A DNA stretch of 64,000 nt from Halolamina sediminis (GTDB taxonomy: Archaea; Halobacteriota; Halobacteria; Halobacteriales; Haloferacaceae). The notes under the pieces are model-generated. The model made no database searches. It was not told the origin of the DNA and was given only the letters and a program-made list of their open reading frames with translations. The position numbers and the translations under genes are program-made. The DNA lies in contig NZ_CVUA01000001.1 of NCBI RefSeq assembly GCF_001282785.1, forward strand, positions 1,116,001-1,180,000, read 5' to 3'. This document shows positions 30,046 to 43,330 of this stretch, piece after piece; the stretch's first letter is position 1, and each line of letters opens with the position of its first letter.

Positions 30046-31896
30046 ATGCAACGGGAGTCGGTACTTCGCGTCGACCTCACCCGCGGGGCGGTCACCGAGG
30101 AGCCCGTGCCCGAGCAGTGGCGTCGACGCTACCTCGGCGGGAAGGGGCTCGGCGCACGCTACCTCTACGAGGAGCTGTCGGCCGACGCCGACCCGCTGGG
30201 GCCGGAGAACCGGCTCTGTTTCGCGCTCGGCCCGCTGTCGGGCTACCTCCCCGGTGAGACCCGCTACGCCGCGGTGACGAAGTCGCCGCTGACGGGCGGG
30301 TTCCTCGACTCCTACGCCGGCGGGCAGTTCCCGCTCGCGCTCGCCGGCGCGCTGCCGAACTGTCTCGCCGTGATCGTGCAGGGCGCCGCCGACGAGCCGA
30401 CGACGCTGGTCGTCGAGGACGGCGCCGCCGACCTCGTCCCGGCCGAGAACTGGGGCGCCGACACCGTCGAGACGGCCGAGGCCTACCCCGACGCGAGCGT
30501 CGCGTGTATCGGCCCGGCCGGTGAGAACGAGGTCGCCTACGCGACCGTCGCGTCCGACGCCGGCGACCACCACGCGGGCCGCGGTGGCGTCGGCGCCGTG
30601 ATGGGCGCGAAGCGGTTGAAGGCGGTCGTCGCCCGCGGCGACCGGCCCGAGATCCCGCCCGCGATCGAGGAGCTCCGGGAGCGGACCGACGCCGAGTACG
30701 CCGACCACGCCACCGGCCGCTGGCAGGCCGCCAGCGGCACCCTCGAGTCGGTCGAGTTCGCCGACGAGGTGGGCGCGCTCGCGACCGAGGGGTGGCAGGC
30801 CGGCCGGTTCGAGGGGAGCGAGGGCGTCGGGATCAGCGCCGCCCGGGACGCCGCGATCGAGCGCGAACGCGGGGACGACCGCGTCCCCGGCGGCTTCCGA
30901 GTCGACACCGAGGAGGGCGAGAGCGTCCCCCGAGGGGCGACGCCGATCAGCCTCGGTGCTGGCCTCGGGATCGACGACTTCGACGCGGTCGCGGCGCTGG
31001 GCGCGGCGTGTGACCGCCTCGGCGTCGACGTGATCGAATCGGGCAGCGCCGTCTCCTGGACCGTCCTCGCCGCGGAGGCTGGCGTCGTCGACGAGACGGT
31101 CGAGTTCGGCGACGACGAGGCCGCACGCGAACTCGTCGAGCGGATCGCCCGCCGCGAGGACCCGCTGGCGGACGCACTCGGACAGGGGGTCGCCGAGGCC
31201 GCCGCGTTCGCGGCTCGGAACGAGCGAGGCGGCGACGGCGCGGACGCCGGGGATACCGACCTCTCCGGCGAAGAACTGGTGCCGACGGTGAAGGCCATGG
31301 CGCTCCCGGGGTACGACCCGCGAGGCGCCGAGGGGATGGCGCTGGCCTACGCCACCAGCGACCGCGGCGGTTGTCACCGGCGCGCCCGGCCCGTCGAGGA
31401 GGAGGTGTTCCACGACCGGAGCCGTGCGGAGACCGTCCGCGAGGTCGCGGAGGCACAGACCGCCCGCTCGGTGCTCTGGAGCCTCGTCGCCGACGACTTC
31501 CTCGGCGACGTGCTCCGGGAAGATCTGGGTGCGGAGTGGCTCCGCGCGGTCGGCATCGACCACGACGCCGCGTCGCTGGCCCGGGCCGGCGAACGGATCT
31601 GGACGCTGGTCCGGCTGTTCAACGCCCGCGAGGGGTTCGACCGCGCGGACGACGAACTGCCCGCCCGCCTGCGGCAGGCACGCGAGGACGGCGCCGCGAT
31701 CGACCCCGCGGCGTTCGAGCGCACGCTCGACGCCTACTACGAGTTCCGCGGCTGGGGCCGCGACGGCCTCCCCACTCGTGAGTTCGTCACGACACTCGAC
31801 CTCGACGACGTGATCGACGCCGAGACGCCGCTCTCGACCGACGCCCCGGCGCCCGCCGGCGACGCGACAGTACCCGACGATACCCAGACAGAATGA
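30046..31896 (+). CDS. Aldehyde:ferredoxin oxidoreductase-like protein lacking 4Fe-4S cysteines
   Basis: This 616-residue AOR-family protein has a tungstopterin-type N-terminal domain that is well conserved: RRRYLGGKGLGARYLYEEL, GPLSGYLPGETRYAAVTKSPLTGGFLDSYAGG, then GRGGVGAVMGAKRLKAVV. A pterin-contact segment, SDRGGCHRRA, is present near residue 440. Classic AORs bind a 4Fe-4S cluster through a C-x2-C-x3-C group and one distant cysteine. Here the matching region (about 270-315, ending PRGATPISLGAGLG) has no cysteine, and none sits near LVRLFNAREGF. The whole protein has only five scattered cysteines. It may use another electron route or have lost redox coupling. Its stop overlaps the next ATG. 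Confidence 0.85.
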   Translation: MQRESVLRVDLTRGAVTEEPVPEQWRRRYLGGKGLGARYLYEELSADADPLGPENRLCFALGPLSGYLPGETRYAAVTKSPLTGGFLDSYAGGQFPLALAGALPNCLAVIVQGAADEPTTLVVEDGAADLVPAENWGADTVETAEAYPDASVACIGPAGENEVAYATVASDAGDHHAGRGGVGAVMGAKRLKAVVARGDRPEIPPAIEELRERTDAEYADHATGRWQAASGTLESVEFADEVGALATEGWQAGRFEGSEGVGISAARDAAIERERGDDRVPGGFRVDTEEGESVPRGATPISLGAGLGIDDFDAVAALGAACDRLGVDVIESGSAVSWTVLAAEAGVVDETVEFGDDEAARELVERIARREDPLADALGQGVAEAAAFAARNERGGDGADAGDTDLSGEELVPTVKAMALPGYDPRGAEGMALAYATSDRGGCHRRARPVEEEVFHDRSRAETVREVAEAQTARSVLWSLVADDFLGDVLREDLGAEWLRAVGIDHDAASLARAGERIWTLVRLFNAREGFDRADDELPARLRQAREDGAAIDPAAFERTLDAYYEFRGWGRDGLPTREFVTTLDLDDVIDAETPLSTDAPAPAGDATVPDDTQTE

Positions 31897-32849
31897 CCGA
31901 CAGGATCGATCTCGACGACGTCGAACAGCCCGAAGAGGAGCGCGACGAGGACCGACCCAACCCCGGCGACTGGCTCTGGCGCGGCGAGGGCTCGCCGGAC
32001 GAGGAACCAGCACCTCCCGAACGGAGTGTCGACATCGGCGCCGACGACTTCGCGGACACCGGGACGGCGACCCCCCGCATCCCGCGAGAGAACGACGACA
32101 AGCCCGTCGGCGTCCCCGTCGACAGCGGCGGCGCGGGCGGCGGCGCGGCGAGTTCGGGCGACGCGCCGACCGGCGGCGTCCCGTCGAACGACGACGAGTC
32201 CGAGCGTGACGAAACCGAAAGAAACGACGATCCCGCGAACACCGGCGACGCGCCCAGTCGTGCGTGGGGGGAGGCGGCCCGGGAGCACGGCGCCTCTGAC
32301 GCGACCGAGGCCGACGCTGATGCCTCCAAACCCGGGACGCCCGCCGGCGGCGACGGCGCGACGCCGAGTGCGAGTCGGACGAGCGCCGGCGGCCACTCCC
32401 GCGGCGAGGAGTGGGAGAACGCCCAACCGGTCCAGCAGTCCGAGTCCACGCCCGGCGCGGCCTCCCACGGCTCGGCGACGACCCGGACCGCGGAGATGAC
32501 GATGGCGTTCTCCTACCGCGCGATCCGGCGGCTCGGGAACGTTCACGCCGCGCTGGCCGACGCCGAAAACTGGACCGACTACCTCGGCATCGTCGGCGAC
32601 GTGGACGCGTCAACGATCAACAAGTACCAGCGCGACAACGTCCTGGATCTGGACTTCTTCAACGGCTCCGGCACGGGACCGGCCGAGCGGCTCGGGGCCG
32701 TGGGCCCGAACTCCATGTTCTACGCCGAGCGGATGGTGCTCGTCGGCGTCGACGAGCGCGAGCAGGCGTGGGCCCAGGAAGCCGACTGGGAGTTCGTCCC
32801 GCTGGAGACCGCCGCCGAGGAGGCCGGCTGGGAGCTGGGGGAGAACTGA
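31893..32849 (+). CDS. Protein with disordered acidic half and conserved C-terminal domain (DUF7124-like)
   Basis: In this 318-residue protein, residues 1-205 are acidic, rich in Gly, Ser, Ala and Pro, and probably disordered. The C-terminal 110 residues (MTMAFSYRAIRRLGNVHAAL, then INKYQRDNVLDLDFFNGSG, then WEFVPLETAAEEAGW) look folded and conserved. I associate it with haloarchaeal DUF7124, with moderate certainty. The ATGA overlap with the AOR-like gene at 31893-31896 shows translational coupling, so it may be a partner of that enzyme. Confidence 0.65.
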   Translation: MTDRIDLDDVEQPEEERDEDRPNPGDWLWRGEGSPDEEPAPPERSVDIGADDFADTGTATPRIPRENDDKPVGVPVDSGGAGGGAASSGDAPTGGVPSNDDESERDETERNDDPANTGDAPSRAWGEAAREHGASDATEADADASKPGTPAGGDGATPSASRTSAGGHSRGEEWENAQPVQQSESTPGAASHGSATTRTAEMTMAFSYRAIRRLGNVHAALADAENWTDYLGIVGDVDASTINKYQRDNVLDLDFFNGSGTGPAERLGAVGPNSMFYAERMVLVGVDEREQAWAQEADWEFVPLETAAEEAGWELGEN

Positions 32850-34460: not shown

Positions 34461-35087
34461 CTACAGCAACTGCGCGACGATCTCGTCTTCGAACGCCGCG
34501 GTCCCGGTGGCGATCCGCGCACCGGCGACGAACAGCGGCTCGTCGGTCTCCGCCGCGATGTGGTCGGTGAACTGCTCCAGCCACGTCAGCAGGTGCTCGT
34601 CGAGGAACACGCGCTCGAAGCCGACGGTCTCGTCCTGCCCGGCGCGCTGGCGCTCGATCAGGTTCCGCAGGAACGCGAACTCCACGGCGATGTGGTCGTT
34701 CTCCTCGCCGTACTCCTCGGGTGGGTTCCAGCCCGCGGCGCCGTAGCTGGCCTCCACGTCGGCCAGCCCCTCGCCGATGAACTCGGTGTCGTCCCGGTAG
34801 TACGTCTCGTGGGGGAGCACGTTCGGCCGCGGACCGACCATCAGCGCGGTGTACTCCTTGGCGAGTTCGTTGGTCACTTCCGCGGGGTCGCGCCCCTCGT
34901 TCTCTTCGACGAACTCTTCCAGCGCGGCGAAGCCGGCGTCGAGGTACTCGTTAACCTCGTCGCCGGGCGTCTCGATCTCGCCCGCGAGCAAGCGTTCGAC
35001 GAACGCCTCGTCGGGCGTGTCGTGGAACACTTCGATCACGAAGTCGACCAGTTCGATGCGTGCGTCGTAAACGGCGGTTTCGTCCAT
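34461..35087 (-). CDS. TorD/DmsD-family chaperone
   Basis: This 208-residue all-helical protein belongs to the chaperones that guide assembly of molybdopterin oxidoreductases and their Tat export. Characteristic segments are EYTALMVGPRPNVLPHETYYRD at about residues 77-98 and NDHIAVEFAFLRNLIERQRAG at about residues 130-150. The context fits: a Tat-exported formate dehydrogenase is encoded divergently a few genes away. The gene is three bases downstream of the large iron-sulfur gene, so both are on one transcript. Confidence 0.87.
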   Translation of the reverse strand: MDETAVYDARIELVDFVIEVFHDTPDEAFVERLLAGEIETPGDEVNEYLDAGFAALEEFVEENEGRDPAEVTNELAKEYTALMVGPRPNVLPHETYYRDDTEFIGEGLADVEASYGAAGWNPPEEYGEENDHIAVEFAFLRNLIERQRAGQDETVGFERVFLDEHLLTWLEQFTDHIAAETDEPLFVAGARIATGTAAFEDEIVAQLL

Positions 35088-35090
35088 TAG

Positions 35091-37208
35091 TTACCCCTGA
35101 AACACGATCTGCGCGCGGCACTCGTCGCAGTACTCGAAGATGCTGTGCTCGGTGTCGCCGGCGACGCCCTCGACGAGGTCGCCCACCTCGTCCTGCACCT
35201 TCTCCATCGACCCGCGGCTGGTGAAGGGAGTCCCACAGCGGACACACTCGATCATCTCGCCCTCGAAGACGGGCTCCCACTCCTCGCCGTCGCGGTTCTC
35301 CGGCAGTCGGGAGCGTTCGAGCCCGGCCTCGATCGTGATGGCGCCCTCCGGACAGCCGCTCTCACAGAGCCCGCAGTTCACGCAGTCGGCGTGGTTGAAC
35401 TGCAGTTCGCCCTCGCCGCTTCGCTGGATGGCGTCGGTCGGACAGAGCGTCGAACAGGTTGGCGTGAGGTTGCAGTCGTCGGAGACCTCCATCCGGCCGA
35501 ACGTGTCCAGCCCGCGGATCACGTCCCGGTCCGGGTCGGTTTCCTCCAGAATTCGGCGCAGCGACTCCAGCGCCCAGTCGTGGGTCGTGAACGGCTCTCG
35601 GGGTGACTCCGGCCGGCCGGTGCCGGTGGCCTCGTGCTCGCCGGTCGGGAGCGGCGACGGGTCGAGTCCCTCGACGAACGCGTCCAGTTCGTCCGCGAAG
35701 CTCGCGGGATCGTCCCCGTCGGGCGCGAAGAACGCGGTCCGTGCACCGAGTTCGAGGTCGCCGGTCGCGACGTTCAGCCGGTCGACCAGTTCGGCCTTCG
35801 GGTCGGGGCCGGAGTGGAGACAGTTGTCGCCGCAGCCGACGATCGCGACGCCGTCGGCGCCGGCCGCCAGCGCGTGGAGCACCTGCGCTTCGCCCACGGT
35901 GTCCGTGCAGTTCACGCGGACCGGGAGAATCGGCTGGTAGGACACGTCCTCGCCGCGGCCCGCGCGCCGGCCGTAGCTCTTCAGCGCGTCGGCGGCCTGC
36001 TCCGAACAGACGAACCCGATGACCGGTGAGTCGATGCCGCTGTCGCCGCCGAAGAAGCTCGAGAGGCGGCCGCCCTCCTCCATGTCGAGCAGGGACTCCA
36101 CCTCGCGTGCGAGGCGTTCGTTCGTCGGCTCACGGAGTTCGACCGCGCCCGTGGGACAGGAGGACGTACACGCGCCACAGTCCATGCAGGCGGTCTCGTC
36201 GAACTCGACCTCGTCCACCGCGGGCCGGGAGACGGCCTCGTGGGGACAGGCGTCGGTACAGCGCGTACAGCCCTCGACGCCGGAGTCGCCCGAGGCACAG
36301 ATGTCCATGTCGATGTCGAGGTGTTGGGGCTTGGAGATCCCGCCGAGCTGGCTCTCGACGGCCGCGGCGACGCCGCCGTCGAAGTGCGAGAAGTAGCCGA
36401 GCTGCCCGCCCCGCCCTCGCGTCGGCCCGCCGGGGTACACCACCTGATCGGCCTCGATCGTGCGCGCGACGCCCTCGGGCTCGATGGCGTCGACCGGGCA
36501 GCAGTCCAGATACTCCCCGTCGGGGGCGTCCGGCGCGATGTCGACCGGGTAGGAGCTGACCGCCTCGTCGGGGCCCTGCTTGACACACTCCATGCAGCCG
36601 ATGCAGTCCTCGGTGACGCGGGCCTCGACGGCCAGTTCGAACTCGCCGAACGAGCCCGAGAGGTCGCGCACGCGGCCGCGCTCGACGTTCACGTCGTCGA
36701 GATCGTGTTCCGGCTCGCCGAAGTCCAGCCCGTTCGCGAGCAGCGTCACGTCGGCGCGTCCCGACAGCGACCCCGCGGCGGCGGCGTCGCCGACGACGAC
36801 GACGTGGTCGCCGGCCTCTTTCGACACCGTCCGCGAGGGTGACTCCTCGCGCAGGCCCGCGACCGTCGCGTCGATGGTTCGGGCGGTCTTCTCGGTCGCC
36901 TCGGGGGTTTCGTGGACCCAGCCGGAGCCCTCGCGGTGGTCGACGAACGCGGTGGCGTCGGGGTGGAGCCCCTGGGCCTCGGCCATCTCCTGAATCCGTC
37001 GCTGGCAGCCGGCGTCGGGAGCGGTCGCGACCACGTGGTCGAGGTCGTACTCCTCGACGACGGCGGCGGCCTTCCCGAGCCCGTCGCCACAGAGGTGACT
37101 CGCGCTCGCGACCACCTCCACGTCCTCGTCGCCGACGCCCTCCCTGACGCCTTCGGCGTCGATGGCGTCCGGGGCGCCGCAGTCGCAGACGAACGCGCCT
37201 ACCTTCAT
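35091..37208 (-). CDS. HdrA/MvhD-like multi-cluster iron-sulfur protein
   Basis: This protein is 705 residues from MKVGAFVCDCG. Residues 1-120 resemble the HdrA N-terminus (C8, C10 and HREGSGWVHE). Residues 130-190 look like a shortened FAD fold whose GxGxxG is replaced by VVGDAAAAGSL. Ferredoxin-type clusters follow: C202/205/208, then C304/314/317/321 and C341/344/347/351. An MvhD (hydrogenase iron-sulfur) domain spans about 395-480 with C401, C434, C459 and C463. Two more clusters lie at C579/585/589 and C609/612/615/619, and a zinc-ribbon end has C655/658/694/697. It is probably a cytosolic electron hub. Its link to formate dehydrogenase rests on gene position. Confidence 0.85.
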   Translation of the reverse strand: MKVGAFVCDCGAPDAIDAEGVREGVGDEDVEVVASASHLCGDGLGKAAAVVEEYDLDHVVATAPDAGCQRRIQEMAEAQGLHPDATAFVDHREGSGWVHETPEATEKTARTIDATVAGLREESPSRTVSKEAGDHVVVVGDAAAAGSLSGRADVTLLANGLDFGEPEHDLDDVNVERGRVRDLSGSFGEFELAVEARVTEDCIGCMECVKQGPDEAVSSYPVDIAPDAPDGEYLDCCPVDAIEPEGVARTIEADQVVYPGGPTRGRGGQLGYFSHFDGGVAAAVESQLGGISKPQHLDIDMDICASGDSGVEGCTRCTDACPHEAVSRPAVDEVEFDETACMDCGACTSSCPTGAVELREPTNERLAREVESLLDMEEGGRLSSFFGGDSGIDSPVIGFVCSEQAADALKSYGRRAGRGEDVSYQPILPVRVNCTDTVGEAQVLHALAAGADGVAIVGCGDNCLHSGPDPKAELVDRLNVATGDLELGARTAFFAPDGDDPASFADELDAFVEGLDPSPLPTGEHEATGTGRPESPREPFTTHDWALESLRRILEETDPDRDVIRGLDTFGRMEVSDDCNLTPTCSTLCPTDAIQRSGEGELQFNHADCVNCGLCESGCPEGAITIEAGLERSRLPENRDGEEWEPVFEGEMIECVRCGTPFTSRGSMEKVQDEVGDLVEGVAGDTEHSIFEYCDECRAQIVFQG

Positions 37209-37446: not shown

Positions 37447-37464
37447 ACCAACATGGTCGTTGGT
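37447..37464. promoter_or_regulatory. Palindromic operator candidate of the fdh operon
   Basis: ACCAAC-ATGGTC-GTTGGT is a perfect 6-base dyad around the expected transcription start. It fits a repressor site, but the regulator is not encoded next to it. Confidence 0.45.
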
Positions 37465-37480
37465 GCGGGATGATACAACA

Positions 37481-40400
37481 ATGAGTTCACAACCAGTCTC
37501 CCTCGACCTGGACCGCAGGTCGTTCCTGAAGGCGAGTGCGCTGGCCGGCGCAGTAGCCCTCGGGGGCGGCGGCGCGGGACAGGCACTCGCACAAAGCGAC
37601 GGGGAGGTAGACGGAACCGACGAAGAGGGCGAACTCACGAAGACGGTCTGTAACTTCTGTGCCGTCGGCTGTGGGTTCCGGGGCGAACGCAAGGGCAACG
37701 CCTTCGTCGGGCAGGAGCCCTGGCACGAGAACCCGATAAACAACGGCTCGCTCTGTTCGAAGGGCGCCGCGATCTACGGGAGTGAACACTCCGAGCGGCG
37801 TCTCAAACATCCGCTGATCAAGGACGGCGACAGCTGGCGCAAGGCCGGCTGGAGCGAGGCGCTCGACAAGGTCGGCGACGAGATCAACCAGATCCGAGAG
37901 GAGCACGGCCCGGACTCGGTGATGTGGATGGGGTCGGCCCACTTCTCCAACGAGGAGTCCTACGCGTTCCGAAAGCTGAGCAGCCTGTTCGGGACGAACA
38001 ACGTGGACCACCAGGCTCGGATCTGTCACTCCACCACCGTCGCCGGCCTCGCGAACACGTGGGGGTACGGGGCGATGACCAACACGATCAACGACTACCG
38101 CAACTTCGACCTCAACATCATCATCGGCCAGAACCCGGCCGAGGCCCACCCGATCGCGATGCAGCACATCCTCGAGGGCCAGAAACGTGGGGGCGAGATC
38201 GCGGTCGTCGACCCGCGGTTCACCAAGACTGCGGCCCACGGGGACTACTACTACCGGATGCGGCCCGGGACCGACGTGGCCCTGATGATGGGGCTGATGA
38301 AGTATCTCCGGGACGAGCAGAACCTCGACCAGGAGATGCTGGAGGAGCGGGTCATGGGCTGGCCCGACGTCGAGACGGAGCTCGACCAGTACGACCTCGA
38401 GACCGTCGAGGACATCACCTGGGTCAGTCAGGAGCAGATCCAGCAGCTCGGCGACCTGATCGCCGAGAACGCCCCCAACGTCCAGATCGAGTGGGCGATG
38501 GGCGGGACCCAGCACAACAACGGGACCCAGAACATCCGATCGTACGCGCTCACCTCGCTGGCGTCCGGGAGCGCCGCCCGATCCGGCGGCGGCCTGCAGG
38601 TCATGCGTGGCCACGCGAACGTGCAGGGGGCGACCGACCTCGCGGTCGCGAGCCACATCCTGCCGGGCTACTACTCGGTCGGCTCGCCCGGCTCGTGGCG
38701 CTACTGGACGGACGTCTGGAGCAAAAGCCCGTACACGAGCGGGGAGATCGGCTTCGAGGAACTGTACGAGGAGTACGACCTGATGCCGGAGGAGAAGTAC
38801 GCCGCGCAGTCCGGTGAGGGTGAGGTCGACGAGACGTTCCCGAACGACCGCTCGATGATGTTCCAGAAGGGGATGACCGTCGCGCGGTGGTTCGACGGCG
38901 GGCTCCCCCAGGAGGAGCGGCTCAACGAGACGCCGCTGTACCAGCCCGACGAGCTGAAAGCCGTCGTCATCTGGGGCCACTCGCTGAACTCCATCTCGGA
39001 GATGCAGAAGATGAAAGACGCGATGGACCGGATGGATCTGGTCGTCGTCGTCGACGTGTTCCCCTCGGTGGCGTCGGTGCTCTCCGATCAGGACAACGTC
39101 GTGATCCTCTCGGCGGCCTCGCAGTACGAGCACCACCGCTCGCTCACCAACTCCCACCGTTCGGTCCAGTGGTCCGAGCCCGTGCGACCGCCGTCGCACA
39201 ACACGAAGCCGGACCTCGAGATCATGCAGGAGCTCGCGGCCCGATTCGGCTTCGGCGACCACTTCGACTGGGGCTCCGGCCCCGGCCTGTACAACGGGAA
39301 GAGCACCTACGAGGAGACCTTGCGCGAGGTCAACCTCGGCGTCCGGACGATCGGCTACCAGCAGGATCCCGAACGCCTGCAGGAGCAGCAGGAGTACGAC
39401 TACGCGTTCTCCACGGACAACCTCCGCTGTGAGGAGGAAGGACTCCCCGTCTCCGGGGAGTTCTGGCAGCTCCCGTGGCCCTGCTGGGGCGAGGGACACC
39501 CCGGAACCCCGATCATCTGGAACGACGATCTCGACCCGCGCAACGGCGGGCAGGACTTCCGCGCTCGGTGGGGCGTGCAGGCCCCGACACCCGAGGAGTG
39601 GGAGGGGATGGACGTCGGGGACAAGGAGTACCCGATGCAGGAGACGTACGATCAGGACGGCGAAGAGGGTCTGAACCTCCTGCGTGACCCCTACGAGCCC
39701 GAGTGGGAGTCCGACTTCGACGACGAAGTGCAGGGCGTCCCGCAGTACCCCGGGTTTGCGACGACGCTGCCCGAGGACTACTCCAACCCCGATCAGCTCT
39801 CGTTGCCGTACGCGTACGCGCTCGATCCCGATCAGTCCGTCTACGACACGGCGGTCGCGATGAACCAGCGCTACGGGACGGACTTCGACGAGGACTGGTA
39901 CGAGCAGTACGACTACGCCCAGCCGGACGCGCCGACCGGGCGTGGCCGTGCACGCGCGGTCGTCTGGGGCTTCCTCGACACGGTCCCGGTCCACCGGGAG
40001 CCGGTCGAGAGCCCGCGTCCCGATCTCGTCGAGGACTGGCCCGCGAACGGGCAGCAGACCAACTTCTACCGGCTCGACCAGAACAACGCGTCCGTACAGG
40101 AGCGTGCGACCGCGGCCGCGAACGATCCGGGCGACGAGTCGGCGTTCAGTACGGTCATGACGACCGGGCGGCAGGTCGAACACCAGGGTGGTGGGGCCGA
40201 ATCCCGTTCCAACGAGTACTTGGCCGACCTCCAGCCGCACATGTACGTGGAGATCCACCCGAACATGGCCGAGGAGATGGGGATCGACGGCGGTGACCTC
40301 GTCGTCGTCTCCACGACGGACCGTGGGTCCGTCTTGGTCAAGTCCCGGGTGACGCCGCGACCCGGCCACGGGCCGGAGGAGGAGGAGATCTTCCTCCCCT

Positions 40401-40693
40401 ACCACTGGGGCGGCATCGCGAAAGGTGAGAGCTTGCTCGAGAAGTACCCCGACGGCAACGAGCCGTTCGCCATCGGCGACTCGGTGAACTTCATCACCTC
40501 GCGCGGGTACGACGTTGAGACACAGATGCAGGAGACGAAGGCGGCGCTGGCGAAGGTCCGACCGGCGACCCAGGAGCTCGTCGACGAGCTCAACATGGAC
40601 GTCGACCTGGAGACGTTCTCGTTCCCGCAGGACGAGGCCGGCTTCGGGATGCAGAAGGACTTCGACACCCGCGACAACACGACGGTTCAGTAA
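37481..40693 (+). CDS. fdhA: Formate dehydrogenase, catalytic molybdopterin subunit (Tat-exported)
   Basis: This 1070-residue protein oxidises formate to CO2 by family. The Tat signal is DRRSFLKASALAGAVALGGG (residues 11-30). A 4Fe-4S cluster is bound by C57, C60, C64 and C92. The metal ligand is Cys182 followed by His183 in ARICHSTTVAGLANTWGYGAM, the pattern of cysteine-type formate dehydrogenases (cysteine in place of selenocysteine). Tail motifs HPNMAEEMGIDGGDLVVVST and LPYHWGGIAKG are typical of the last molybdopterin domain. It probably faces outside the membrane, passing electrons to FdhB and then the cytochrome b. Confidence 0.92.
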   Translation: MSSQPVSLDLDRRSFLKASALAGAVALGGGGAGQALAQSDGEVDGTDEEGELTKTVCNFCAVGCGFRGERKGNAFVGQEPWHENPINNGSLCSKGAAIYGSEHSERRLKHPLIKDGDSWRKAGWSEALDKVGDEINQIREEHGPDSVMWMGSAHFSNEESYAFRKLSSLFGTNNVDHQARICHSTTVAGLANTWGYGAMTNTINDYRNFDLNIIIGQNPAEAHPIAMQHILEGQKRGGEIAVVDPRFTKTAAHGDYYYRMRPGTDVALMMGLMKYLRDEQNLDQEMLEERVMGWPDVETELDQYDLETVEDITWVSQEQIQQLGDLIAENAPNVQIEWAMGGTQHNNGTQNIRSYALTSLASGSAARSGGGLQVMRGHANVQGATDLAVASHILPGYYSVGSPGSWRYWTDVWSKSPYTSGEIGFEELYEEYDLMPEEKYAAQSGEGEVDETFPNDRSMMFQKGMTVARWFDGGLPQEERLNETPLYQPDELKAVVIWGHSLNSISEMQKMKDAMDRMDLVVVVDVFPSVASVLSDQDNVVILSAASQYEHHRSLTNSHRSVQWSEPVRPPSHNTKPDLEIMQELAARFGFGDHFDWGSGPGLYNGKSTYEETLREVNLGVRTIGYQQDPERLQEQQEYDYAFSTDNLRCEEEGLPVSGEFWQLPWPCWGEGHPGTPIIWNDDLDPRNGGQDFRARWGVQAPTPEEWEGMDVGDKEYPMQETYDQDGEEGLNLLRDPYEPEWESDFDDEVQGVPQYPGFATTLPEDYSNPDQLSLPYAYALDPDQSVYDTAVAMNQRYGTDFDEDWYEQYDYAQPDAPTGRGRARAVVWGFLDTVPVHREPVESPRPDLVEDWPANGQQTNFYRLDQNNASVQERATAAANDPGDESAFSTVMTTGRQVEHQGGGAESRSNEYLADLQPHMYVEIHPNMAEEMGIDGGDLVVVSTTDRGSVLVKSRVTPRPGHGPEEEEIFLPYHWGGIAKGESLLEKYPDGNEPFAIGDSVNFITSRGYDVETQMQETKAALAKVRPATQELVDELNMDVDLETFSFPQDEAGFGMQKDFDTRDNTTVQ

Positions 40694-40694
40694 A

Positions 40695-41399
40695 ATGTCC
40701 ACCAACGAATCAAACACCGAAGTCATCGGCCAAGGGGTGATGAGCACCGGCGAAGATACGCGCATCTTCCCCGACGTGGCCGCGTGTATCGACTGTGGCG
40801 GCTGTGTAGTCGCCTGTAACCGAACGTGGGATATGCCCCGCGACGAACAGCGTATCAGCATCTCCACGATGCTCGAGGGCAAGCAGGGTGCGACCGAGTC
40901 CGCCGACGTCGGCGGGCAGCGCCGGATCAACGACCCCTCGGCAGCGATGGACAACGGGCAAAAGCCCGGCGAGACCAGCGTTCCGATGCAGTGTTACCAC
41001 TGCGAGAACGCGCCCTGTGTCTCGGTCTGTCCGGTCGACGCGCTCGTCAAGAAGGACGACGGGTTCGTCGACGTGCGCGACGACGTCTGTATCGGCTGCC
41101 AGTACTGTCTCTCGGCCTGTCCGTTCGGCGCCCCGCAGTTCCCCGGCTCGAACGACGGCGCCGCGGAGATCTTCGGCACCGGCGGCACGATGGACAAGTG
41201 TACGATGTGTCAGGATCGACAGGACGTCGGCAAGGGCCCGGCGTGTGCCGAGGAGTGTGCGACCGACGCCATCCTCGTGGGCACGACCGAGCAGATCGCC
41301 GACGAGCTGGACAAACGTGACTCGGGGACGTTCTTCAACGACGACGCGATGAAGGTCGTCTTCGGGGAGGACGAAGCTTCGGAGGCGTTCGGCGTATGA
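40695..41399 (+). CDS. fdhB: Formate dehydrogenase iron-sulfur subunit
   Basis: This 234-residue ferredoxin-type subunit has four cluster sites. The first is C31/34/37/41 (CIDCGGCVVACNRTW). MQCYHCENAPCVSVCPVDAL and CIGCQYCLSACPFGAPQF follow, then CTMCQDRQDVGKGPACAEECATDAI. This is the DmsB/FdnH arrangement. Unlike Escherichia FdnH there is no C-terminal membrane helix. The ATG starts one base after the fdhA stop, and its stop overlaps the next gene. Like many such subunits it lacks a Tat signal and may hitch-hike with FdhA. Confidence 0.9.
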   Translation: MSTNESNTEVIGQGVMSTGEDTRIFPDVAACIDCGGCVVACNRTWDMPRDEQRISISTMLEGKQGATESADVGGQRRINDPSAAMDNGQKPGETSVPMQCYHCENAPCVSVCPVDALVKKDDGFVDVRDDVCIGCQYCLSACPFGAPQFPGSNDGAAEIFGTGGTMDKCTMCQDRQDVGKGPACAEECATDAILVGTTEQIADELDKRDSGTFFNDDAMKVVFGEDEASEAFGV

Positions 41400-41800
41400 G
41401 TAACTCGACCGCAGAGAACGGCGCCAGCAGCTACTCGGGGACGGTCGTCGCGGTCAACGCCGTGATCTCGGTGGCGGTCGCACTCGGGCTGATCTGGGTC
41501 GTCAACGGGTTCAACGTGTTCTACGAGCGGCTGGACCGCGTCTCGCCCACCGTCGACGGCGGCGGGATCGGCACTGCGTTCGCCCAGGGCAACGAGATCG
41601 AGTGGCTCGTCTTCCTCGTGGAGGCGATGCACGCGGTCGACGTGCTGATGGGGCTGTTCATCCTGGTGCTGGTGTTCGTCCACTGGGGGGCGTTCCGACG
41701 CATCGCGGCACGGATGCGCCAGCCCGGCGAGTCCCGCGTCGCGACCGACGGCGGCTCGCCGGCACAGGGAGCCGGCGAGGACGGAGGTGAGAACGAATGA
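41396..41800 (+). CDS. Small membrane protein of the formate dehydrogenase operon
   Basis: This 134-residue protein has two membrane helices, at about residues 17-40 and 75-101, with the loop ERLDRVSPTVDGGGIGTAFAQGNE between them. The C-terminus (GESRVATDGGSPAQGAGEDG) is disordered and acidic. It starts in an ATGA overlap with fdhB and its stop overlaps the cytochrome gene. I do not recognise it in bacterial formate dehydrogenases. An assembly or anchoring role is inferred from location. Confidence 0.75.
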   Translation: MSNSTAENGASSYSGTVVAVNAVISVAVALGLIWVVNGFNVFYERLDRVSPTVDGGGIGTAFAQGNEIEWLVFLVEAMHAVDVLMGLFILVLVFVHWGAFRRIAARMRQPGESRVATDGGSPAQGAGEDGGENE

Positions 41801-42786
41801 CGAATCTCGACCACGGGAAGTTCACGCGGATGACGACAGTGTTCCACTCGCTGCTCGCCATGGACGTGTTCTTCCTGTTCTTCACGGGGTACGCCATCAT
41901 GTTCAACGACGAGCTCTGGTGGATGCTCACCCTGATGGGTGGCTCCGGCGCGGTCGCTGCGCTCCACCGAGCGTTCGGCGTCGGCCTGCTGGCGCTGGTC
42001 GTGTTCTGGATGCTGATGATGGTGACCACGGACACCGGGCGCTCGAACTTCCGTGAGATCATGCCGACGCCCGGCGACGCGAAGGCGTTCGTGCAGGACA
42101 TCCAGTTCGTGCTGGGCAACGCCGAGGAGCGCCACCCCAACGCCCGACAGTTCGCGGGCGGCACGGCCGACGAGGTGCCGCTGCTGAGCTACGTCGGCAA
42201 GGGCGTGGTGTTCATCTTCGCCGCGGAGCTGACGCTGCTGTCGATCTCCGGGCTGCTCATTTGGAGCAAGACCGGACTGATGCAGTACTTCGCGACCCAG
42301 ACCGCGGCGATCGCGTTCGTCGTGTTCCACGGCCTGCTGGGGGTCGTGATGCTGATGGGTGTGATGTTCCACATCTTCGAGCACGGGTTCCACCCGGCGT
42401 TCTTCCCGGTGGAGACCAAGGCGTTCATCCCCCGCTCGATGATCCCCGAGGAACACGACGACGACCACGAGGGGACGGGCATCGAGCACCTCGAGCTCTC
42501 GCCCAACTGGGCGAGCGCGTCCAACCTCGGCGGCGCGGCGACGGTGATCGGGATCGTCAGCGTGCTGGTGGCCAGCATCTACGACACCGGCTACCCGGTG
42601 TCGCTCGAACTGCTGGTCGGCGGCGGTCCGACGAACCTGCTGCTGACCGTCGGCGTCAACATCGGCGTGCTCGTGCTGTTCCTCGGCATGGTGCTGTCGG
42701 TGTACGGCAACCTCGTCCGCATCCGCTGGGAACAGCGTATGGCCGAGGAGGAGGCCGACAGCGTCGACGCCGAAGCGGCCGACTGA
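41797..42786 (+). CDS. fdhI: Formate dehydrogenase cytochrome b subunit
   Basis: This 329-residue membrane protein of the FdnI/NarI type has four core helices at about residues 15-38, 50-72, 130-152 and 166-190, and two extra C-terminal helices (about 245-265 and 280-305). Candidate heme b ligands are His18 (TTVFHSLLAM), a histidine in AALHRAFGVG, and two in VVFHGLLGVVMLMGVMFHIFEHGFH. It would pass electrons from the iron-sulfur subunit to menaquinone, which the menF gene in this window could help make. The extra C-terminal helices are unusual. Confidence 0.88.
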   Translation: MTNLDHGKFTRMTTVFHSLLAMDVFFLFFTGYAIMFNDELWWMLTLMGGSGAVAALHRAFGVGLLALVVFWMLMMVTTDTGRSNFREIMPTPGDAKAFVQDIQFVLGNAEERHPNARQFAGGTADEVPLLSYVGKGVVFIFAAELTLLSISGLLIWSKTGLMQYFATQTAAIAFVVFHGLLGVVMLMGVMFHIFEHGFHPAFFPVETKAFIPRSMIPEEHDDDHEGTGIEHLELSPNWASASNLGGAATVIGIVSVLVASIYDTGYPVSLELLVGGGPTNLLLTVGVNIGVLVLFLGMVLSVYGNLVRIRWEQRMAEEEADSVDAEAAD

Positions 42787-42866: not shown

Positions 42867-43265
42867 TTAAGAGATCAGTTCCGCGCTCTCCGTCGACAGT
42901 TCGACCGTCACGTCCTCGGTAGCGTGTTGCTGGATCTGGTCGATGTTGCGCGTGAGCACCTCGAGCACGTCCTCGGGCTCGGGGTAGACGAGCATGTTGC
43001 CGTCGTCGTCCTCCATCACCAGCTGGGTGTCCGAGAGCTGGATCTGCCCGTCCTCGATCGAGGCGACGATCGACGACAGCGCCTCGGAACCGCCGGGCTC
43101 GCCCTCGACCACTTTCGTGATGTAGAGGCTGTCCATTCCGATCAGGTCCTTGTACTCCCGGATCCGCTCGGCACAGCTGACCATGTCGCGGGTAACTGCC
43201 GTCTTCTCGGGGTTCCCGTGTTCTCCTTCGTAGCAGTGTTTACAGACCCGCAGTTCCATCCGCAT
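42867..43265 (-). CDS. Protein with cysteine/histidine N-terminal motif, unknown function
   Basis: This 132-residue protein has an N-terminal metal-binding-like motif, LRVCKHCYEGEHGN (two cysteines, two histidines). A helical middle follows (TRDMVSCAERIREYKDLIGM), then a beta-rich C-terminus (DTQLVMEDDDGNMLVYPEP). I prefer ATG 43265 because a clear TATA box lies 28 bases upstream; the in-frame ATG at 43259 is an alternative. It could be a small metal or DNA-binding regulator, but function is not established. Confidence 0.7.
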   Translation of the reverse strand: MRMELRVCKHCYEGEHGNPEKTAVTRDMVSCAERIREYKDLIGMDSLYITKVVEGEPGGSEALSSIVASIEDGQIQLSDTQLVMEDDDGNMLVYPEPEDVLEVLTRNIDQIQQHATEDVTVELSTESAELIS

Positions 43266-43288
43266 ACCCCGCTGTGGGGGATGAGGTC

Positions 43289-43300
43289 GGATATAGCTGT
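43289..43300 (-). promoter_or_regulatory. TATA box for the Cys/His motif protein gene
   Basis: Minus-strand ACAGCTATATCC is centred about 28 bases before the ATG at 43265. Confidence 0.55.
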
Positions 43301-43330
43301 CCACCGCGGCCGATCGCTCGGCGACCGGGG

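Follow-up and report, generated by a model that had tools for sequence, protein, structure and literature searches.

The window, by which we mean the whole stretch of 64,000 nucleotides of Halolamina sediminis DNA that was analysed, contains a gene for a protein, here named HdrX, that has the domain make-up of an HdrA-MvhD fusion with conserved cluster-binding cysteines and that has lost the flavin site. HdrX is linked to a TorD-type chaperone and to exported molybdenum or tungsten (Mo/W) enzymes, usually a formate dehydrogenase (FDH), and in one clade the enzyme has been exchanged while TorD was kept. HdrX could well be a cytoplasmic partner that serves Tat-exported Mo/W enzymes in redox or Fe-S maturation, comparable to NapF; we give this reading about an even chance of being correct.

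Results

Domain organisation of HdrX

HdrX is encoded by a single gene in this genome (Table 1), begins with MKVGAFVCDCG and has no signal peptide. Pfam searches placed an FlpD/MvhD domain at residues 396-515 (4.7e-14, 52.9 bits with a cut-off of 22.3) and Fer4 pairs at residues 313-355 and ~577-627, while residues 2-144 aligned with the HdrA N-terminus in a phmmer search against the PDB. When a profile of 48 HdrX family members was compared with one of 12 HdrA/HdrA2 proteins, residues 1-517 of HdrX proved colinear with residues 1-767 of HdrA2 (E 5e-50, 498 columns). The domain matches and the profile alignment agree with a sequence-only reading made earlier, which had described an HdrA-like N-terminus, an eroded FAD fold and an MvhD domain in one chain. 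The parts that it named were all recovered, but the C-terminal module of a ferredoxin plus CxxC...CxxC had escaped it, as had the neighbouring torD and the Tat signal of the FDH.

HdrX shares with HdrA2 (type Ia HdrA) the order N-terminal FeS domain, inserted ferredoxin, C-terminal ferredoxin and MvhD, but differs from it in the collapsed FAD domain, the added C-terminal ferredoxin and CxxC tail, the lack of adjacent HdrB/HdrC genes and its setting beside TorD and an exported FDH. Classified by its parts, it has the N-terminal FeS domain, the two-cluster C-terminal ferredoxin and the fused MvhD of a type Ia HdrA, and lacks the FAD-binding thioredoxin-reductase domain with its Gly-rich motif; its scores also lay below the curated HdrA family cut-offs (best NCBIfam match 102 bits versus 1100). 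The features that define the HdrX family, namely a full-length match, the C-terminal ferredoxin plus CxxC...CxxC and a nearby TorD, are all present. The gene was found at 86-91% identity in named Halolamina contigs, and a contig scan matched the same genus only. An AlphaFold2 model of HdrX, computed from a shallow three-sequence alignment that excluded L004, where the gene is frameshifted, had a mean pLDDT of 33.9 and a pTM of 0.27.

Table 1. HdrX, its domains and the neighbouring genes in the window.
Feature	Position	Strand	Remarks
TorD/NarJ-family chaperone gene	34461..35087	-	3 bp downstream of HdrX
HdrX gene	35091..37208	-	ATG start; 705-aa flavin-less HdrA2-like protein with MvhD domain
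CxxC...CxxC tail	35118..35246	-	C655, C658, C694, C697; in correctly read archaeal and bacterial members
Extra C-terminal ferredoxin	35325..35495	-	residues 572-628; C579, T582, C585, C589 / C609, C612, C615, C619
MvhD/FlpD domain	35664..36023	-	residues 396-515; C401, C434, C459, C463
HdrA-type C-terminal ferredoxin domain	36129..36299	-	residues 304-360; two clusters predicted
Collapsed rest of FAD/thioredoxin-reductase domain	36300..36473	-	residues 246-303, versus ~250 residues in HdrA2
Inserted ferredoxin domain	36474..36617	-	residues 198-245; one 4-Cys set (C202, C205, C208, C237)
Relic of first beta-alpha-beta of FAD domain	36714..36821	-	residues 130-165, VVVVGDAAAAGSLSGRADVTLLANG; Gly-rich loop and acidic residue gone
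HdrA-type N-terminal domain	36834..37208	-	residues 1-125; C8, C10, C40 conserved; fourth ligand variable: C14, C63 or C68
FDH alpha (FdnG-like)	37460..40693	+	open frame from 37460, probable start 37481; Tat signal DRRSFLKA; divergent from HdrX
FDH beta subunit (4Fe-4S)	40695..41399	+	
Small conserved protein of FDH operon	41396..41800	+	
Cytochrome b subunit of FDH, membrane anchor (Ni_hydr_CYTB)	41797..42786	+	
RPA145, 145-aa protein of unknown family	42867..43304	-	Pfam match absent

Loss of the flavin site

In the profile alignment, HdrA2 residues ~321 to 570, the ~250 residues of the FAD/thioredoxin-reductase domain, have only ~55 counterparts in HdrX, ~195 being absent, and a further ~24 residues are missing after the first beta-alpha-beta. 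At the position of the Gly-rich loop HdrX reads VVVVGDA---AAAGSLS, with VVVVGDAAAAGSLSGR located at residues ~136-151. The motif GxGxx[GA] was absent from this site in 81 of 83 HdrX family proteins and present in 12/12 HdrA2 controls; a Gly-rich stretch was retained there by two relatives (GGGAVG in L105 and GTGEAA in L124), and other matches to the motif lay elsewhere in the proteins. In the HdrA of M. thermolithotrophicus, FAD is stabilised by E356 and K409 (PMC12054007), the equivalents of which would fall, by position, inside the HdrX deletion. Surveys of HdrA diversity have sorted variants by, or reported them to retain, the FAD-binding part (PMC12054007, PMC9012536), and the FAD residues were reported to be kept in all HdrA of the ANME survey (PMC9012536).

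Loss of the site is thus a trait of the family rather than local decay, and the flavin is probably gone. Since the site is lost family-wide, electron bifurcation by HdrX is very unlikely. Both points, loss of the FAD site and improbable bifurcation, had been anticipated by the sequence-only reading and are borne out by the deletion and by the missing motif (81/83, versus 0/12 in the controls). Retention of a flavin by the leftover Rossmann-like segment, with HdrX bifurcating or acting as a flavoprotein, we consider highly improbable: a short beta-alpha-beta relic does persist (VVVVGDA...ADVTLL), as does the Gly-rich stretch of L105 and L124, but the lost ~195 residues include, by position, the segment with the FAD-stabilising Glu and Lys of HdrA (PMC12054007), and nearly the whole family lacks the Gly-rich motif.

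Predicted iron-sulfur clusters

The conserved cysteines predict ~7 Fe-S clusters in HdrX together with a CxxC...CxxC metal site, so that the earlier estimate of at least five clusters was too low. One cluster each is predicted for the N-terminal domain and the inserted ferredoxin, two for the HdrA-type ferredoxin (C304, C314, C317, C321, C341, C344, C347, C351), one [2Fe-2S] for MvhD and two for the C-terminal ferredoxin. The inserted ferredoxin has eight cysteines (two clusters) in other archaea, in contrast to the one 4-Cys set of haloarchaea. Position 582 is a cysteine in other archaea and a threonine in haloarchaea only, where the C-terminal ferredoxin may consequently carry a [3Fe-4S] cluster. 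Correctly read family members all keep the CxxC tail and the C-terminal ferredoxin. The MvhD cysteines are absent in the bacterial members and in the G001/G007 copy. A diverged HdrX (~33% identity) without MvhD cysteines was seen in two small genomes (L050, 8134-10107, and L051), where its gene lies in line with those for FDH and TorD instead of being divergent.

Gene neighbourhood and distribution

The neighbouring FDH, whose genes run divergently from HdrX as had been noted from the sequence, fits a bacterial-type Tat-exported FdnGHI in its Tat signal, Fdh-alpha match, FeS beta subunit and cytochrome b gamma subunit; the best model for the alpha subunit was TIGR01591 (440.7 bits, below the cut-off of 666). 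HdrB and HdrC were not matched among the HdrX neighbours (TorD, FDH subunits, an aldehyde:ferredoxin oxidoreductase (AOR) and DUF7124). On the plus strand of the window, at 30046-32849, the AOR gene overlaps the DUF7124 gene.

Among 292 haloarchaeal genomes, HdrX was found in 76 (31 of 77 genera) and an FdnG-like FDH, at an identity of at least ~44%, in 77. The two occurred together in 73 genomes (73/76 of those with HdrX and 73/77 of those with FDH), leaving three with HdrX only and four with FDH only (Fisher 8e-60, with set membership transcribed by hand from printed tables). The genetic link between HdrX and FDH, at which the sequence-only reading had hinted from a single locus, is real, and it is correlational. 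Loci lacking a nearby FDH, which the sequence-only reading had named as speaking against its proposal, do occur to some extent: one clade lies beside another exported molybdoenzyme and not beside FDH, and at two more loci the 8 kb around HdrX hold no FDH. A membrane-bound FDH operon has been described for Halodesulfurarchaeum (PMC5437934). The FdnG homologues of G035, G066, G234 and G263 each appear to contain one in-frame TAA or TAG stop.

Of 60 haloarchaeal loci, 54 had TorD within 0.7 kb of HdrX and 58 had a Mo/W oxidoreductase no farther than 8 kb away. The same 8 kb held AOR in 39 loci and DUF7124 in 48, usually convergent with HdrX/TorD, and the 145-aa protein in 48. A close form of the latter (at least 63% identity) occurred in 71 of the 292 haloarchaea, all of them HdrX genomes. 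In other archaea of the phylum, where HdrX matches over its full length at ~30% identity, TorD adjoins HdrX in 19/19 loci and FdnG is often next. Across lineages, TorD is the more constant neighbour of HdrX.

Export of the partner enzyme and partner exchange

The Tat motif DRRSFLKA or a variant was found on FdnG at almost all loci, 58 of 64 passing a strict pattern. The exceptions to the strict pattern were two over-long open reading frames (L042, L047), three proteins with RRxVLK (L056, L077, L121) and one cytoplasmic NAD-linked FDH. The Tat signal of FdnG, in combination with the beta subunit and the cytochrome b anchor, places the catalytic side of FDH outside. With an export signal on FDH and none on HdrX, a stable complex of HdrX with mature FDH is unlikely. 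This tells against the plain electron hub paired with FdhA/FdhB that the sequence-only reading had proposed, as does TorD being the steadier neighbour.

In a tree of 68 proteins, the HdrX proteins of L053, L056, L071, L077 and L121 formed a clade (support 100) nested in the FDH-linked haloarchaeal group. Four of these five loci encode TorD, a molybdopterin enzyme and a beta subunit, the nearest models for the enzyme being PhsA/ArrA at scores far below their cut-offs. This clade has changed its partner to a Psr/Phs-like exported enzyme while retaining TorD. The annotated operon of Natronorubrum bangense (L121) also includes an NrfD-type anchor and has arsenic genes nearby; on this Natronorubrum plasmid (2993-11091), the Psr/Phs/Arr-like exported enzyme, its NrfD anchor, TorD and HdrX stand beside arsenic resistance genes. 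At L071 (7414-9919) both the TorD and the HdrX copies are damaged, the HdrX frame lacking its first ~89 residues; this looks like a broken copy, and a TorD-HdrX fusion was sought among the loci and not found. In a second nested haloarchaeal clade, of six loci, TorD is not adjacent, the 145-aa gene lies directly upstream of HdrX, and most loci have a more distant Tat-type FDH and AOR within a few kb.

Bacterial relatives

The operons that encode relatives of HdrX in Variovorax, Bradyrhizobium and Roseobacteraceae also contain genes for TorD, DUF3305 and DUF3306 and for a Tat-type alpha and a beta subunit of FDH; each of the four bacterial FDH operons that were read includes TorD. Bacterial and archaeal HdrX profiles gave a full-length match (E 3.6e-73 across 642 columns, with L122 taken as the annotated CDS), while the bacterial profile matched HdrA2 at only 3e-22. 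The better match between the bacterial and archaeal proteins indicates that they constitute one family. The bacterial proteins, annotated as '4Fe-4S binding protein' or 'fer4' in TorD-fdh operons, share with haloarchaeal HdrX the full-length family match and the TorD and Tat-type FDH neighbours, but lack the MvhD cysteines and are accompanied by accessory genes unseen at haloarchaeal loci.

Discussion

According to the maturation reading, HdrX would have descended from HdrA2, losing the bifurcating flavin domain and gaining a second ferredoxin and the CxxC...CxxC tail at its C-terminus. With FAD gone, the electron path of HdrA would be reduced to a path from MvhD to the ferredoxin clusters, lengthened by the C-terminal ferredoxin. 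We infer that HdrX contacts the apo-enzyme in the cytoplasm and has a role in its maturation: it would remain cytoplasmic and, together with TorD, act on a Tat-exported Mo/W-bisPGD enzyme, in most cases FDH, while this is still in its apo form prior to export. Its most likely job would be the loading or repair of Fe-S clusters, or the supply of low-potential electrons that prime the clusters or the metal cofactor. There is precedent for such a function, as TorD-type chaperones carry out the cytoplasmic maturation of exported molybdoenzymes, joined in the case of NapA by the polyferredoxin NapF; in R. sphaeroides, NapF, a cytoplasmic protein with 4x[4Fe-4S], is required for Fe-S assembly of NapA ahead of Tat export (PMC10609526). 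NapF resembles HdrX in being cytoplasmic, in carrying several [4Fe-4S] clusters and in having its gene beside that of a Tat-exported molybdoenzyme (PMC10609526), but it is much smaller and not derived from HdrA, and HdrX did not pass the NapF model TIGR00402 (35 bits, cut-off 102.2). FdhE, an accessory protein for exported FDHs, has paired CxxC motifs as HdrX does (PMC10609526); unlike HdrX, it is described as an iron-binding rubredoxin and has no [4Fe-4S] ferredoxin domains. HydN/YsaA have been reported to raise FDH-H activity (PMC6004506).

Alternatively, HdrX could be a flavin-free wire that connects a partner in the cytoplasm with the FDH/quinone side and conducts electrons between them during catalysis, the partner being ferredoxin, the nearby AOR or another MvhD-docking enzyme. 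This is in essence the hub of the sequence-only reading, and taken as a whole we find it rather doubtful. The wire would account for ~7 predicted clusters in line, including an MvhD [2Fe-2S] site conserved in haloarchaea, for the strict co-occurrence with FDH and for AOR within 8 kb at 39/60 loci, and MvhD is an electron-transfer domain of Hdr complexes (PMC9012536, PMC12054007). However, FDH alpha is Tat-exported and HdrX is not, the link to FDH persists in bacteria and for the G001/G007 copy despite the loss of the MvhD cysteines there, and TorD was retained when the partner enzyme was swapped. Co-occurrence itself cannot tell maturation from electron transfer; it is the linkage to TorD, the export and swapping of the partner and the NapF precedent that lead us to favour maturation or redox priming over the wire. 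Against maturation, the MvhD [2Fe-2S] site of haloarchaea suggests real electron flow, beyond the needs of a scaffold, one haloarchaeal subclade (six loci) has no adjacent TorD, and TorD-type chaperones suffice for the maturation of other exported molybdoenzymes. A further possibility, which appears very unlikely to us, is that HdrX is linked mainly to AOR and its DUF7124 partner, the FDH operon being merely a neighbour in one tungsten-enzyme island. AOR and DUF7124 are indeed frequent near HdrX (39/60 and 48/60 loci) and usually convergent with HdrX/TorD, but TorD (54/60) and Mo/W oxidoreductases (58/60) are more constant, and AOR was absent from the bacterial and Psr-type loci that were read.

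FdhD is the usual sulfurtransferase for FDHs. A search for FdhD (PF02634) was negative in all 292 haloarchaea, though FDH-like enzymes are common in them, and positive in 8 of 14 control genomes; FdhE had no match in the genome studied here. In view of these absences, maturation must use other factors. Conceivably, haloarchaeal HdrX and TorD, perhaps with the 145-aa protein, form an alternative machine that gives sulfur and electrons to activate the Mo/W-bisPGD cofactor of exported FDH, a proposal that we regard as unlikely. HdrX as a replacement of FdhD everywhere was dropped, because FdhD is encoded near the relative of HdrX at one bacterial locus. The HdrX family raises the question of how active FDH is produced in haloarchaea that lack FdhD. 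This widespread bacterial and archaeal family, which has no FAD part and has kept the chain of clusters, would represent an electron-splitting enzyme that has been repurposed, and the ties of HdrX to TorD and exported FDH give it a concrete and testable role.

A published function for a protein of the HdrX family was not found in the literature. Hypothetical ferredoxins have been noted in operons with DUF3305/DUF3306 (PMC4464133). In addition, the iron-sulfur cluster-binding protein SO4506 of Shewanella has been listed with FdhD (SO4503) and FDH alpha (SO4509) (PMC2535785); it is a likely candidate for a bacterial relative.
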